Source of the DNA: Phascolarctobacterium sp.
GTDB taxonomy: Bacteria > Bacillota > Negativicutes > Acidaminococcales > Acidaminococcaceae
Direction of reading: 5' to 3'
Assembly: GCA_024405615.1 (NCBI GenBank)
Contig: JAKSOK010000003.1
Location: forward strand, 1-37,453
Length of the DNA stretch: 37,453 nt
Shown here: positions 9,223-28,328 of the stretch, piece by piece
Layout of the letters: each line of letters opens with the position of its first letter
Numbering within the stretch: position 1 is the stretch's first letter
Program-made: the position numbers and the translations under genes
The notes under the pieces: generated by a model
What the model saw: only the letters and a program-made list of their open reading frames with translations
Database searches by the model: none
Told to the model about the DNA's origin: nothing

Positions 9223-9245
<23 letters not shown>

Positions 9246-10005
9246 CTTGCTTCCTCCTCAAAAATTCTAAGCTATTATTAAATGTCTTTTCATCAATTTC
9301 TAGAGCATTTTTCCCTGTTAAAAGCATTACTGCCATACAGTTATCAATCTCTTCAGCATATCCTAAACGTACCTTTTCAAAATAAAAATTTTCTAACGCT
9401 TCCTTTGCATCAAGAAAAGCAATCCTGTCACATTTAATATATTGCTGACAATCTATAAAGTTAAGCCATGGTTGAATTTTTAAAAGCTCTACTATAGATT
9501 CATGAAGCTTTTTTCTTTCATTTCTTTCACAAACATTGCACAGTTTGTTATCAGAAAGCATTTTGGCTCCACAAACAGGACATTTAATAATTGATAATAC
9601 AGGTTCAACGTCTTTTATAACTTCTTCATTAGAATAATTTACATCAATTTTTCCTGTATGAAATTTTAAATCAACAACCCTCATTCTTCCATCTAAAGCT
9701 TTATTAATTTTTTGCAAAAGCAACTTTTTCATCATGAAAAGCTCATTTGCAAAAAGAGAAGATTTGGTTTTTATTAATAAAGTGTTTCCTTGAAGCTTAG
9801 ATACAGCGCAATTTTTTACTAAATTTTCACCAACAATTTCTTGCCAATGCTTTTCCAAATAGTACTCAATATAACGAACCTTAACTTCTAAAGGAAATTC
9901 TTTTTTTACTTGTTTTTCACCAGGTTGAACAAAAACATTAAAAGTTTTCTTTCTTGGATCAAAAATGTTTTTTAAAATACTATTTGTTTGCTCTAGCTTT
10001 TGCAT
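9223..10005 (-). CDS. dciA: DciA-like (DUF721) helicase-loader protein with zinc ribbon
   Basis: Residues about 40-120 match the DUF721/DciA fold, with the conserved tryptophan W54 in HWQEIVG, the block LLIKTKSSLFANEL, and a following helix. DciA is the ancestral loader or partner of the replicative helicase DnaB. After this domain there is a CxxC...CxxC zinc-ribbon motif (C142, C145, C156 and C159), then a charged alpha-helical tail to residue 260. The extra region makes the protein longer than minimal DciA proteins. It lies one base after recF and overlaps remB, within an origin-proximal operon that fits a role in replication initiation. The zinc-ribbon part has no assigned function. Confidence 0.8.
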
Positions 10006-11368: not shown

Positions 11369-12478
11369 TTAAAATACTACGCGGACGGGAGTAACAATAT
11401 ATGTGTAACTTTCATCATCAACTGCTTTTATGCAAACAGGACTTAGAGAAGTATTCAAAGAAAGTACAACTTCTTCAGATTCCATATTCTTTAAAATATC
11501 AGCAATGTATTGAGAATTAAAAGCTACGTTTAGATTTTCACCATCAGAAATACATGCAACATTTTCTTTACCAGTACCGGAAGCAGGATTACTAGAAGTT
11601 AAAATCATATTATTATTGTTGATATTTATTTTAATAATGCTATATTCACCATCGCTAGAGAATAAGGATACACGTTCAACAGCACTTGCAAATTCTTTAA
11701 CTTTTACTTTAGCAGTAACTGCAAATTTAGGAGGAATAACTCTTCTATAATCGGGGAATTTACCTTCAATTAAACGAGAAACAATAATAACATTGTCAAT
11801 AACAATCATAATTTGATTATTTAACAAAGAAATCTTTACCATTTGTGGTACGTCTGAGTTCAAATTACGGGCAATTTCCGCTAATACTTTAGAAGGAATA
11901 ATTAAATTCATAGCTTCTTCATTTGCTTGTTCTACAGATTTAATTGCTAATCTATGAGTATTAGTGCCGACACAAGTAATATTTTCTGTACTAACATCAA
12001 ACAGAATACCTGTAAATAGTGGTCTGGATTCATCATTAGAACATGCATAGATAGTTTTTCTAATCAAATCTTTAATTTTATCGTCTGGAATTTCAATAGA
12101 TTTATTTCCGTTAAAGCTAGGGAATTTAGGAAAATCTTCTTCATTCATTAATAGTAATTTAAATTCAGAAGATGAAGAATTAATAGTGATAGTTTTATTT
12201 TCAGGATTTTTTTCAATAGTAATTTCTTCACAAGAAAATTTACGAATTAACTCAGATAAATATTTAGCAGAAACAACGATTTCACCAGGTTCTAAAATAT
12301 TTGCATCTGTAGTACAAGAAATTGCCATATTTAAATCCATAGCTTGTAATTCAATTGCATTTTCTATGGTTACGATATGAATGCCAGAAAAAATAGGGGT
12401 ACTAGGTTTAGAGATGATCGCTTTTTGAACGGTTTGAATAGCTTTATTGAGAGCATCAGAATTACATTTAATCTTCAT
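11369..12478 (-). CDS. dnaN: DNA polymerase III sliding clamp (beta subunit)
   Basis: The beta clamp dimerises into a ring that tethers DNA polymerase III to DNA. The protein is about 369 residues with three similar domains, and it ends in YIVTPVRVVF, matching the family's conserved MPMR-like C-terminus. I chose ATG at 12478 because AAGGAGG (12491-12497) would be only three bases from the alternative GTG at 12487 but 12 bases from this ATG; the GTG adds just three residues (MYK). It is the second gene of the dnaA operon, separated from dnaA by the origin spacer. Confidence 0.96.
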   Translation of the reverse strand: MKIKCNSDALNKAIQTVQKAIISKPSTPIFSGIHIVTIENAIELQAMDLNMAISCTTDANILEPGEIVVSAKYLSELIRKFSCEEITIEKNPENKTITINSSSSEFKLLLMNEEDFPKFPSFNGNKSIEIPDDKIKDLIRKTIYACSNDESRPLFTGILFDVSTENITCVGTNTHRLAIKSVEQANEEAMNLIIPSKVLAEIARNLNSDVPQMVKISLLNNQIMIVIDNVIIVSRLIEGKFPDYRRVIPPKFAVTAKVKVKEFASAVERVSLFSSDGEYSIIKININNNNMILTSSNPASGTGKENVACISDGENLNVAFNSQYIADILKNMESEEVVLSLNTSLSPVCIKAVDDESYTYIVTPVRVVF

Positions 12479-12505
12479 TTTATACACATTCCTCCTTATA
12501 TTCTA

Positions 12506-12727
12506 TAACTGTTATATTTATAAAAAATAGTAGTCATCATAGTAGGTAATGTTGAAAATGTGGAAAAGTTAAAATTTTGCTTTAGTTATGCTATTTTGAG
12601 TATGTACATAAAGCTGTTAAAATATTAACTTTTTTTTCCACATTATTGACAGCTTAATTAAGTATTAACATTTATACTTAAGATATCCACAGAAATTAGG
12701 GAAATTATCCACAAAAACTGTGGATAA
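12506..12727. other. oriC core: DnaA-box cluster, DnaA-trio-like tract and AT-rich unwinding element
   Basis: The dnaA-dnaN spacer holds two perfect DnaA boxes facing each other, TTATCCACA (12705-12713) and TGTGGATAA (12719-12727), plus near-matches at 12683-12691, 12634-12642 (TTTTCCACA), 12559-12567 (TGTGGAAAA) and 12550-12558 (TGTTGAAAA). Reading the minus strand, the last two form a head-to-tail pair. They are followed by an 18-base tract, CTACTATGATGACTACTA (12545 down to 12528), and then an A/T-only run (12527-12508). This order is that of the basal unwinding system described for Bacillus subtilis. An AT-rich 8-bp inverted repeat lies at 12658-12681. Confidence 0.85.
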
Positions 12728-12730
12728 TTA

Positions 12731-14095
12731 TTACTGTTTAATTATTTCAGTAATGCGTGTTACATCTTCTTTAATTTTTAAGTCTGTTTGCATACCTTTA
12801 TATATTTTATCATAGGCATATAAAACAGTTGTATGGTCACGTTTACCGAAAAGTTCACCTATTTTAGGATAAGATAGATCTGCTAATTCACGGCATAAAT
12901 ACATTGCTATTTGTCTAGGATAAGCAATATTTTGGGTACGTTTTTGTTTGAAAAGCTCATCAGTTTTAATATTAAAATATTCTGCTACTGCCTTAGTAAT
13001 AGTATCTGCAGTAATAACATAAGTTACAGTAGTTATTTTCATATCATTTAGCACTTTTTGAGCTGTTTCAATAGTTATAGGCATATCCATTAAAGATGTA
13101 TATGCAACCAGTTTAGTATAAGCACCTTCAATTTCACGAATGTTAGTTGTAATATTTGTAGCTAAAAGAGTAACAACATCATTTGGAAGTTCAATATTAT
13201 CGTTAGATGCTTTTTGACGGATAATTGCGATACGTGTTTCTAAGTCTGGTGGCTGGATGTCAGCTTGCAAACCCCATTCAAATCTTGTGCGTAGACGATC
13301 TTCCAAAGTTTCAATTTCTTTTGGAGGCCTATCACTAGAGATAATAATTTGTTTGTTCGCATCATGCAAAGCATTAAAGGTATGGAAAAATTCTACCTGT
13401 GTTTGTTCTTTACCTCTTAAAAATTGAATATCGTCTATGATTAAACAATCTATATTGCGATACTTTTGACGGAATGCATCAGTTGTTTTATGTTGAATAG
13501 ATTGAATAATTTCATTAGTAAAAGTTTCACAGGATAAATATAGAACCTTCATATTTTGATTATTGCTTATGATTCTGTTGCCTATTGCATGCATTAAGTG
13601 AGTTTTACCTAAACCAGAACCGCCATATATAAATAGAGGGTTATAAGAGTTACCTGGATTATCTGCAACATTTGAGGCAGCTGCAAAAGCCATACGGTTA
13701 GCATTACCTACAATGAAATTTTCAAAAATGTATTTTGGATTCAGATGAGAAATATTTGCATCTTTAACTTGAAGTTGCTCTTGTTTTTTTACTGTAATAG
13801 GAGTTATTTCTTTCTTTTCTGGAGTAGAAATGTTAGTATTTTCCTTGTTTTCTAAGGATTCAATTATCAAATGTATTTTTTTACCTAAAATTTCTTCCAA
13901 GGTAGCTTCAATTTTAGAAGCATATTTATTTTCCAACATTTTACCAAATACGGAACTGTTTACTGCAACTTTTAAATAGGTATCAGTAAGTTCTAATGGC
14001 ATAATTGGCTCAATCCACACATTATAAATAGACTCATGTATTGACTCTTTTAGTTTATTTGTGCACTCAAGCCAAACTTCAAATAAGTCGTACAT
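12731..14095 (-). CDS. dnaA: Chromosomal replication initiator protein DnaA
   Basis: The 454-residue AAA+ initiator binds DnaA boxes and melts the origin. Domain I lies at about 1-80, a lysine- and glutamate-rich linker at 81-115, and the ATPase domain has Walker A GGSGLGKTH (158-166) and Walker B LIIDDIQF (218-225). The domain IV helix-turn-helix carries the signature FGKRDHTTVLYAYDKI (416-431). It starts at ATG 14095 behind GAGAGGG. Its promoter has a DnaA box in the spacer, which implies autoregulation, and its stop codon lies three bases from a pair of perfect DnaA boxes. It is first in the leftward operon that continues to gyrA. Confidence 0.98.
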   Translation of the reverse strand: MYDLFEVWLECTNKLKESIHESIYNVWIEPIMPLELTDTYLKVAVNSSVFGKMLENKYASKIEATLEEILGKKIHLIIESLENKENTNISTPEKKEITPITVKKQEQLQVKDANISHLNPKYIFENFIVGNANRMAFAAASNVADNPGNSYNPLFIYGGSGLGKTHLMHAIGNRIISNNQNMKVLYLSCETFTNEIIQSIQHKTTDAFRQKYRNIDCLIIDDIQFLRGKEQTQVEFFHTFNALHDANKQIIISSDRPPKEIETLEDRLRTRFEWGLQADIQPPDLETRIAIIRQKASNDNIELPNDVVTLLATNITTNIREIEGAYTKLVAYTSLMDMPITIETAQKVLNDMKITTVTYVITADTITKAVAEYFNIKTDELFKQKRTQNIAYPRQIAMYLCRELADLSYPKIGELFGKRDHTTVLYAYDKIYKGMQTDLKIKEDVTRITEIIKQ

Positions 14096-25881: not shown

Positions 25882-27060
25882 ATGAGAAATTGGAAAAAAT
25901 TAAGTAGTGCTGCATTAGCAGCTATGGTAATGGCAACTGTTATGGCCGGTTGCGGCGGTGGAGATAAAAAAGCGGACAAAGCTGCAGCCAATACAATAAA
26001 AATTGGCTCTTGCTTTGAATTAACCGGTAACGTTGCTGTTTATGGTAAATCTGCTAGCAGCGGTTTAAAATTGGCTGTAGAAGAAATCAACGCTAAAGGC
26101 GGCGTTAATGGCAAAAAGTTGGAAATCGTTGAAAGCGATAACAAATCCGAGCCTTCTGAATCTGGCAATGCTTATACCAAACTTATCACTCAAAATAAGG
26201 TAATTGCAATTGTTGGTCCTGCAACTTCTGGTTGTGTAGCAGCAGGTACTCCGATTTGTGAAGGAAACAAGATTCCTCAAATCGCTCCTTGCGCAACCGC
26301 ACCTGGCATCACTGTTAATAATGGCAAGGTTAGACCTTTCACCTTCCGTGCTTGCTTCATCGATCCGTTCCAAGGTAAGGTTATGGCAGAATTTGCTGAT
26401 AAATCTTTGAAAGTTAAAAAAGTTGCTATTCTGAAAGATTCTTCTAGTGATTATGCTAAAGGTTTGGCTGAAGTATTCAGAAAGACTATGGAAGCAAAAG
26501 GCAACAAGATTGTTGCAGAAGAAGCTTATCTGGCTAAAGACGTTGACTTTAAAGCTTCTTTGACCAAATTGAAGGCTTCTCAACCGGATGCAATTTATGT
26601 TCCTGGTTACTATGAAGAAGTTTCCAAGATTATCAAACAAGCTCGTGAACTGGGCATCAATGTTCCTATGATGGGCGCTGATGGTTGGGAATCTCCGAAA
26701 CTGGCTGAAATTGCTGGTGCAGCAGCCCTGAAAGATTGCTACTATGTATCTGCTTTCTCTGCTGATGATAAAGATCCTTCCGTTCAAGCATACATTAAGG
26801 CTTATAAAGCTAAATACAATGCAACTCCGGATATCTTCTCCATGCAAGGTTACAATGCAGGCTTGATTTTGGCTGATGCTTTGAAACGTGCTAACGGTGG
26901 TGATGGTGCTGCATTAGCAAAAGCTATTGAATCTACTAAAGATTTGCCCGTAGCAAGTGGCAAAATTACTTTTGATGCCAACCACGATCCTGTAATGGCA
27001 GCATTAATTATCGATTTCAAAGATGGCAAACCTAGCCTGAAAGAAAAGATTGCTCTGTAA
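25882..27060 (+). CDS. livJ: Branched-chain amino-acid ABC transporter substrate-binding lipoprotein, copy 1
   Basis: The 392-residue protein has a lipoprotein signal peptide with the lipobox VMAGC (C24), followed by a Gly- and Lys-rich linker. The mature part is a type I periplasmic-binding fold of the LivJ class: IKIGSCFELTGNVAVYGKSA at the start, then NAYTKLI and IAIVGPATSG. It is first in the liv operon, behind a near-perfect promoter, and should capture leucine, isoleucine, valine or a related ligand outside the membrane. By eye it is strongly similar to the next gene, indicating tandem duplication. Exact ligand preference cannot be read from the sequence. Confidence 0.93.
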   Translation: MRNWKKLSSAALAAMVMATVMAGCGGGDKKADKAAANTIKIGSCFELTGNVAVYGKSASSGLKLAVEEINAKGGVNGKKLEIVESDNKSEPSESGNAYTKLITQNKVIAIVGPATSGCVAAGTPICEGNKIPQIAPCATAPGITVNNGKVRPFTFRACFIDPFQGKVMAEFADKSLKVKKVAILKDSSSDYAKGLAEVFRKTMEAKGNKIVAEEAYLAKDVDFKASLTKLKASQPDAIYVPGYYEEVSKIIKQARELGINVPMMGADGWESPKLAEIAGAAALKDCYYVSAFSADDKDPSVQAYIKAYKAKYNATPDIFSMQGYNAGLILADALKRANGGDGAALAKAIESTKDLPVASGKITFDANHDPVMAALIIDFKDGKPSLKEKIAL

Positions 27061-27077
27061 TTTTTAATATGTTAGTC

Positions 27078-27119
27078 TTTAAGGGCTTAATTTAAAGTTA
27101 AGCCCTTAAAATATATTTT
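27078..27119 (+). terminator. Terminator/attenuator between the two livJ copies
   Basis: TTTAAGGGCTTAA (27078-27090) pairs perfectly with TTAAGCCCTTAAA (27098-27110) around a seven-base loop. A broken T-rich tail follows (ATATATTTTT). It may lower read-through from copy 1 to copy 2 and the permease genes, giving excess binding protein. Confidence 0.7.
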
Positions 27120-27146
27120 TATTTTTTTAGAAGTGAGGGCTTTACT

Positions 27147-28328
27147 ATGAAAAAAATGACAAAATATGCAGCTATGTTAGCTGTAAGCGCTCTGACAATT
27201 GGTGCATTAACCGGTTGTGGTGGCGGAGAAAAGAAAGAAGCTGCCAAAGGTGATGTTATCAAAATTGGCGCTAACCTGGAAATGACAGGTGGTTCTGCTT
27301 CCTTTGGTATTTCTTCTAAGAATGCAATTGAATTAGCTCTGGAAGAAATTAATACTAAAGGTGTTTTAGGCGGTAAGAAAATTGCTTTAAGTGTAGCAGA
27401 TAATAAATCTGAAGCTGCTGAAGGTACTAATGCAATGCAAAAACTTATTTCTCAAGATAAAGTTGTTGCAGTAATTGGTCCTAACTTGTCCTCTTCTGTT
27501 ATTGCTGCAGGTGCTATTAATAATAGCATGAAAGTTTTAGATATCACTCCTATGGGCACTAACCCTGATGTTACTGTTGATCCTAAAACCAAAAAAACTA
27601 GAGATTATAGCTTCCGTGCATGCTTCATTGACCCGTTCCAAGGTACTGTAATGGGCAACTATGTTGCTAAAGATCTTAAATTGAAAAAAGCTGCTATCCT
27701 GATTGATAACTCCTCTGATTATGCTAAAGGCTTAGCGCAATTCTTTGAAGAAGTTTATAAGAAAAATGGTGGCGAAGTTGTTTCTAAAGAAGCTTATCTG
27801 CAAAAAGATACTGATTTCAAAGCAACTTTAACTAAGATTAAAGCTACTAACCCGGAATTTATTTATATTCCTGGTTACTATCAAGAAGTTGGCCTGATTG
27901 TTAAACAAGCTCGTGAAATGGGCATTAACGTAGCAATGGCTGGCGGCGATGGTTGGGACTCTGCTAAGCTTCCTGAAATTGCTGGTGCAAAAGCATTAGA
28001 CAACACCTTCTTCACTAACTTGTATTCTCCTGATGATACTTCCGAATTAAACAAAAAATTCGTTGCTGCTTATCAAAAGAAATACAATGCAAAACCTGAC
28101 GTATTTGCAGCATTATCTTATGATTGCACTATGCTGATTGCTAAAGCGATCGAAGATGCTAAATCTGCTGATCCTGCAAAAATTGCTGAAGCAATGGCAA
28201 AAATTAAAGGTATGCCTGGTGTATCTGGCGAAGTTACCTTTAACGAACAACACAATCCTATTAAATCTGCTGTAATTATTGAACATAAAGACGGCAAACA
28301 AACCTTTAAAGCAAAAGTTAATCCTTGA
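27147..28328 (+). CDS. livJ: Branched-chain amino-acid ABC transporter substrate-binding lipoprotein, copy 2
   Basis: The 393-residue paralogue of the preceding gene has the lipobox ALTGC (C24). The binding fold is co-linear with copy 1: both share SFRACFIDPFQG (TFRACFIDPFQG in copy 1), SSDYAKGLA and the PGYY/GINV/DGW region. The ligand-facing loop after IGPNLSSSVIAAG differs from copy 1 and lacks the cysteine-rich CAGCVAAGT-like features there, so the two may have different ligand preferences. It has its own GTGAGGG-like site. A weak hairpin and a long imperfect stem lie between it and livH. Confidence 0.93.
   Translation: MKKMTKYAAMLAVSALTIGALTGCGGGEKKEAAKGDVIKIGANLEMTGGSASFGISSKNAIELALEEINTKGVLGGKKIALSVADNKSEAAEGTNAMQKLISQDKVVAVIGPNLSSSVIAAGAINNSMKVLDITPMGTNPDVTVDPKTKKTRDYSFRACFIDPFQGTVMGNYVAKDLKLKKAAILIDNSSDYAKGLAQFFEEVYKKNGGEVVSKEAYLQKDTDFKATLTKIKATNPEFIYIPGYYQEVGLIVKQAREMGINVAMAGGDGWDSAKLPEIAGAKALDNTFFTNLYSPDDTSELNKKFVAAYQKKYNAKPDVFAALSYDCTMLIAKAIEDAKSADPAKIAEAMAKIKGMPGVSGEVTFNEQHNPIKSAVIIEHKDGKQTFKAKVNP

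Follow-up and report, generated by a model that had tools for sequence, protein, structure and literature searches.

The stretch of DNA analysed here, called the window, is 37,453 nucleotides long. Between dnaA and dnaN it carries two co-oriented DnaA boxes and a row of six triplets, the central two of which have a cytosine at the position where Bacillus subtilis DnaA captures an adenine. Are such triplets gaps in the array, or are they working DnaA-trios?

The unwinding element and its setting

The source of the window is a Negativicutes MAG, 79% complete, from the family to which Phascolarctobacterium and its relatives belong. The window is a normal origin region. The genes dnaA (12731–14095, minus strand; TIGR00362, 547.7 bits), dnaN (11369–12487, minus strand; TIGR00663), recF, a DciA-type helicase-loading factor gene, gyrB and gyrA are read leftward, while rnpA, mnmE, mnmG and parB are read rightward. 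The DciA-type gene occupies the recF–gyrB interval (9223–10005, minus strand; PF05258, 49.5 bits with a cut-off of 24). The open reading frame called as dnaN begins with GTG (12476–12487); the start conserved in the relatives is probably an ATG near 12478, after an AAGGAGG site. Elsewhere in the window, 25882–28328 holds two successive periplasmic binding-protein genes (PF13458), probably a duplication of the substrate-binding component in a transporter of the amino-acid type.

The bin that contains the window (G000) has two dnaA genes, 61% identical, on contigs C179 (the window) and C214 (locus L002), each with its own trio array. The bin probably contains a second organism. The closest dnaA relative (74%), L003, lies on a contig titled Alphaproteobacteria (JAKSVT010000041.1) with a sequence clearly of this Negativicutes family, and its MAG is likely mislabelled or contaminated.

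Read from the dnaA side, the minus strand of the element presents TTTTCCACA, TTTTCAACA, TTAC, CTA CTA TGA TGA CTA CTA and TTTTTTATAAATATAA. The upstream box, box 1 (12559–12567), has one mismatch to TTATCCACA and fits TTWTNCACA. Box 2 (12550–12558) abuts it and has two mismatches, with a conserved CAACA/CACA end. The 4-nt spacer TTAC (12546–12549), which is GC-rich in most Negativicutes loci and not here, leads to trios 1–2 (12540–12545), canonical CTA triplets (3′-GAT-5′ on the opposite strand) in register with the boxes. Trios 3–4 (12534–12539) are TGA triplets, 3′-ACT-5′ on the opposite strand, with cytosine at the captured position; their register is fixed by the flanking CTA trios, since trios 5–6 (12528–12533) are again canonical. 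The whole array, 12545–12528, is CTACTATGATGACTACTA. Beyond it lies an A/T-only run of 16 nt (12512–12527), the predicted duplex-unwinding element, and relatives are also A/T-rich past the trios. Among the 20-mers of the region, 12532–12513 has the lowest stability; it begins within the last trios and belongs to the bottom 0.1% for the window. A box pair followed by 4 nt and at least four [CT]TA triplets out of six occurs once in the window, and the same rule gave no match in 150 dinucleotide-shuffled windows or when the 243-bp spacer was shuffled 5,000 times.

An earlier note on this DNA had recognised here the B. subtilis type order of boxes, DnaA-trios and AT-rich element, and the position, order, spacing, orientation and conservation of the parts support it. 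The 18-base triplet tract at 12545–12528 stands; its parsing into ATG and ACT does not, the odd triplets in register being TGA. The two central triplets do depart from the trio consensus as the note had said, each placing a cytosine where adenine is captured in B. subtilis. The boxes next to the trios had been called weak; box 1 is not really so, because TTTTCCACA agrees with the standard consensus and shows strong conservation among relatives. The distal boxes are TTTTCCACA at 12634–12642 and ATATCCACA at 12683–12691, both on the plus strand with one mismatch, and two exact copies of TTATCCACA, at 12705–12713 (plus strand) and, inverted relative to it, at 12719–12727 (minus strand). The latter are indeed the two perfect boxes announced at about 140 bp from the trios, in a cluster beside the dnaA stop. 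The suggestion that weak proximal boxes imply looping gained no specific support: tandem imperfect boxes near the trios are the usual arrangement (PMC8287927), and close relatives have kept the distal cluster adjoining the dnaA stop as well.

Pelliciari et al. 2021 (PMC8287927) defined the basal unwinding system (BUS) by its boxes, a distance of at most 16 nt, and at least three N-A-N triplets on the opposite strand. Their genome-wide search required a middle A; no BUS was found in 15% of origins, and 'deviant' trios were suspected (PMC8287927). The window element lies at a chromosome origin, within the dnaA–dnaN spacer and at the sign change of GC skew at 12–13 kb of the window. Its boxes share one orientation and have 1 and 2 mismatches, where a BUS allows up to two in one box and up to four in the second. 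The trios start 13 nt from box 1 and 4 nt from box 2, within the 16-nt limit and at a distance common for the better box (10–13 nt). The 16-nt run supplies the A/T-rich DNA directly past the trios. The trio-binding ISM residues, which line the trio pocket and were placed by alignment to PDB 8btg, are all kept in the window DnaA (Asn187, Ile190, Ile193, Arg202 and Glu228 in B. subtilis numbering). From trio 1 the array gives two NAN and then two NCN triplets; a run of three NAN begins only at trio 5, 16 nt past box 2, and extends into the A/T tract. Three consecutive trios are obtained from trio 1 once C is allowed beside A. Judged by its sequence, the element is a BUS variant.

The origin of B. 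subtilis has two boxes, the 4-nt spacer GGCC (PMC8235120), then CTACTATTACTTCTACTA (PMC10201434) and an A/T-rich stretch. Its BUS, composed of incC boxes 6/7 and the DnaA-trios, shares with the window two co-oriented boxes, a 4-nt spacer, six triplets, an A/T run and a location downstream of dnaA. The arrays CTACTATGATGACTACTA and CTACTATTACTTCTACTA are of the same length, their first two and last two trios are identical, and so are the pocket residues. Only five central bases differ, TACTT in B. subtilis and GATGA in the window. The window thus has C instead of A in the middle of trios 3–4; it also has TTAC instead of GGCC as spacer, and its genome has a DciA helicase-loading gene, with no DnaD found. 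In Clostridioides difficile oriC2, DnaA-dependent unwinding was observed with P1 nuclease (PMC7561715), and the trio CACCTACTACTATTACTACTATGA (PMC7561715) agrees with the window in position, orientation and trio content; the main array there is A-middle throughout, whereas the window has C middles. The eTrio/DUE modules of Thermotoga maritima (PMC10316083) likewise contain triplet repeats, of TAG, with the single strand bound by DnaA, but the boxes are arranged otherwise and the box-proximal trio has another role.

The captured base in Negativicutes and other Bacillota

The dnaA–dnaN spacers of 147 Negativicutes loci were compared, the genomes of the relatives being partly MAGs. A box pair was obligatory for the site finder, which scored the boxes, the downstream A/T content and bases 1 and 3 of the triplets; it left the middle base free and favours triplets with C or T first and A last. 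The same layout was found at 141 of the 147 loci, with a spacer of 4 nt in 133. When the trio side was shuffled the finder returned matches in 11%, with middle bases ranking T > A > G > C; reversed spacers gave 1 match in 141 and opposite-strand spacers 3 in 141. Among 30 members of the window's family, box 1 reaches 1.79 bits per column, box 2 1.12, the trios 1.28 and the AT run 1.0, compared with 0.29 in the 38 nt directly upstream and 0.66 in the next 50. The element is the best-conserved block of the spacer within this family. The spacer alignment that the earlier note had proposed as a check therefore came out with conservation highest inside the element, opposite to the outcome named there as adverse. 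That the window array is one triplet short relative to its relatives was ruled out, as a gap-free alignment gives equal length. The comparison establishes the layout, its register and its conservation.

What B. subtilis DnaA takes into its pocket is the central base of a triplet, read on the strand opposite to that on which the boxes are written. In 100 distinct genus-by-array combinations of Negativicutes, this middle base is A in 449 triplets, C in 130, T in 16 and G in 5. Cytosine accounts for 86% of the non-A middles against 25% expected from the spacer composition (p 4e-55). Related arrays enter these counts individually wherever no thinning was applied, and family-level figures are therefore also given: with one array per family, C makes up 36 of 41 non-A middles (p 8e-17). 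Three consecutive N-A-N triplets occur in 112 of 141 arrays, and three consecutive N-[A/C]-N triplets in all 141. For the complete set of six triplets the rule holds in 17 of these arrays with A only, compared with 118 with A or C. Mutation bias provides no ready explanation, because G, the transition partner of A, is the rarest middle base. On the DnaA tree the minimum numbers of middle-base changes are 13, 9, 25, 17 and 6 at trios 2–6, and 1 at trio 1. Both the A-or-C rule and the repeated switching between the two bases are established by these comparisons; A-to-C switches are recurrent among the Negativicutes arrays, and the cytosine middles look like a rule, not decay.

Some observations count against reading these triplets as cytosine trios. 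Cytosine is nearly absent from the middle of trio 1 (3%) and commonest at trios 4 (40%) and 5 (50%). This distribution may reflect in part a weaker constraint at a distance from the boxes, although weaker constraint by itself would not favour C over T or G. The C triplets of the window also start with A on the trio strand (3′-ACT-5′), and A is less favoured than G as first base in B. subtilis trios. A further caveat is that the window derives from a MAG of 79% completeness, in a bin with two dnaA contigs.

Other Bacillota were represented by a phylum-wide draw of 67 arrays with at least three [CT]TA triplets. Their middle bases are A 352, C 30, T 13 and G 7. The proportion of C middles is 7.5%, compared with 18.8% in Negativicutes (p 6e-8, relatedness uncorrected), and C still leads the non-A bases.

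Proposed cytosine capture and its alternatives

In B. subtilis DnaA, Asn187 bonds the amino group of the captured adenine, and base analogues led to the inference that cytosine should work (PMC10721633). With C in place of the captured A, strand separation by B. subtilis DnaA proceeded at a similar rate, and A-to-C changes in trios 1–3 in vivo allowed faster growth than G or T (PMC10721633). The engineered A-to-C mutants, functional in vitro and in vivo, thus resemble the window in having cytosine at the captured position (PMC10721633); they were made in the laboratory, whereas the cytosine trios of Negativicutes are natural, recurrent and conserved. The comparison established that 140 of 141 Negativicutes DnaAs retain Asn187, the contact of the captured base. 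Natural cytosine trios did not turn up in a literature search whose reach excluded most of the preprints and subscription papers.

It is likely that the site is the unwinding module of a Negativicutes origin, with the central triplets as working cytosine-type trios and a DnaA pocket that takes A or C. By analogy with published work in other species, DnaA would bind the two co-oriented boxes (12567–12550) and assemble outward on the single strand opposite, with a protomer for each triplet, along 3′-GAT GAT ACT ACT GAT GAT-5′, and the A/T run past the trios would be opened. In this assembly the Asn187 pocket would capture adenine or cytosine, the two bases with a suitable amino group, and TGA TGA would be working trios instead of gaps.

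The central triplets might alternatively be degenerate members of a canonical BUS, which DnaA passes without base-specific capture while the four GAT trios do the work. Such a view agrees with the box-proximal trios being the most critical ones in B. subtilis (PMC10201434), and with the gathering of non-A middles at trios 4–5 in Negativicutes. However, loss of function predicts T and G at least as often as C, and what is seen is C as the commonest non-A base (130/600) and G as the rarest (5/600), even though A-to-G transitions are usually the commonest mutation; degeneracy is an unlikely explanation. The filament could also be shifted by one base, with a 3-nt spacer, so that TGA-rich arrays are read as ATG triplets with a middle A and no C is captured. 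Pure TGA arrays (L096) and L219 (TGA TGA TGA TAA TGA TGA) are readable in this way, but the register is fixed by CTA trios on both sides in the window, and likewise in L308 (TGA TGA CGA CTA TGA CTA) and L309. The variation between TGA and CGA, a first-base A/G difference when C is captured, would turn into a middle A-to-G change in the shifted register, and 133 of 141 loci keep a spacer of 4 nt. We regard such a shift as highly improbable, and give no greater weight to the proposal that the G:C pairs raise duplex stability or form the site of another protein, independent of DnaA capture. The abundance of C-middle triplets at trios 4–5 would suit that proposal, yet a G on the trio strand would serve equally and is almost absent, and the C positions float over trios 2–6. 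GC content as the driver of the number of C-middle trios was also rejected, the trend not being significant (rho 0.19, p 0.13).

An addition to cytosine capture is offered by the DnaD recognition element (DRE), whose TnnT motif lies across from the trios in the duplex, its thymines base-pairing with the adenines that DnaA captures (PMC10201434). A lineage without DnaD would be free from the TnnT constraint, and C would be allowed. The idea is attractive because Negativicutes are mostly without DnaD and with DciA. Outside Negativicutes, however, C middles amount to 6.2% (17/276) with DnaD and 9.4% (9/96) with DciA and no DnaD (p 0.35), and one DnaD-bearing genus has C in trios 1–3, which leaves this contribution improbable. 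In the window, TnnT motifs remain in the flanking CTA pairs, and the combination of paired TnnT and dnaD that marks a DRE is lacking: PF07261 (DnaD) has no match in this 79%-complete genome, and DciA is present. Across the phylum sample, DnaD (PF07261) occurs in 109 of 159 genomes and DciA (PF05258) in 42 of 159, almost mutually exclusively; G067 (Negativicutes), G380 and G414 match both.

Cytosine-rich arrays and a probable trio code

Cytosine middles go further in two genera. Three congeners of genus g116 (family f49), which lies outside Negativicutes and far from the genus of the window, agree in spacing and in pocket residues (N I L R K E E), with TTA TTA CTA, TGA TGA TGA and TGA TGA CGA as their trios 1–3. 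They are nature's counterpart of the published A-to-C changes in those trios. In genus g17, which belongs to the window's own family, the arrays of L095–L097 consist entirely of TGA and CGA. A class-wide search for such arrays gave matches in 12 of 380 genomes; 3 of them (g17) have the array next to a pair of DnaA boxes in the dnaA–dnaN spacer, and the flanking letters of the other 9 have no DnaA box end.

In B. subtilis the first trio base is contacted by DnaA residue 202. This position is occupied by Gln in g5 and most of g17, and by Lys in g6 (variants seen in L081–L097 of g17, L064–L065 and L067–L071). The g17 arrays are rich in A-first and in C-middle trios, and the interruptions in g6 are T-middle (TAA, CAA). 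First trio bases number A 34 and G 26 with Gln, and A 102 and G 602 with Arg. These counts are suggestive of a link between the residue and the first base, but the tree has only 3 changes. In several genomes of genus g2 (L084–L087) two dnaA genes lie about 2.6 kb apart at the origin. The first copy in L085 has the AAA+ and helix-turn-helix domains without DnaA_N. To find a DnaA paralogue lacking domain I in tandem next to the origin is unusual.

That deviant trios exist had been suspected (PMC8287927), and the tolerance of cytosine was known from the laboratory (PMC10721633); natural cytosine trios appear to be new. The arrays suggest that the recognition rule for trios is broader than the rule used to search for these elements. 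It is reasonably probable that DnaA-trios in nature follow the code N-[A/C]-N, with cytosine at the capture position used in Bacillota, above all in Negativicutes, through many A/C switches. At least two unrelated lineages, g17 and g116 of f49, would then have most or all box-proximal trios converted, and g17, with its change from Arg202 to Gln in the first-base pocket, would possibly have a co-evolved specificity.

A better search rule for trios would be A or C. Natural origins also offer substrates ready for use, among them those of species within one genus whose differences lie in just the captured bases. The A/C pattern supports the base-capture model from independent evidence: natural origins may be seen as the answer of evolution, which among the non-A bases chose the one with the right amino group.
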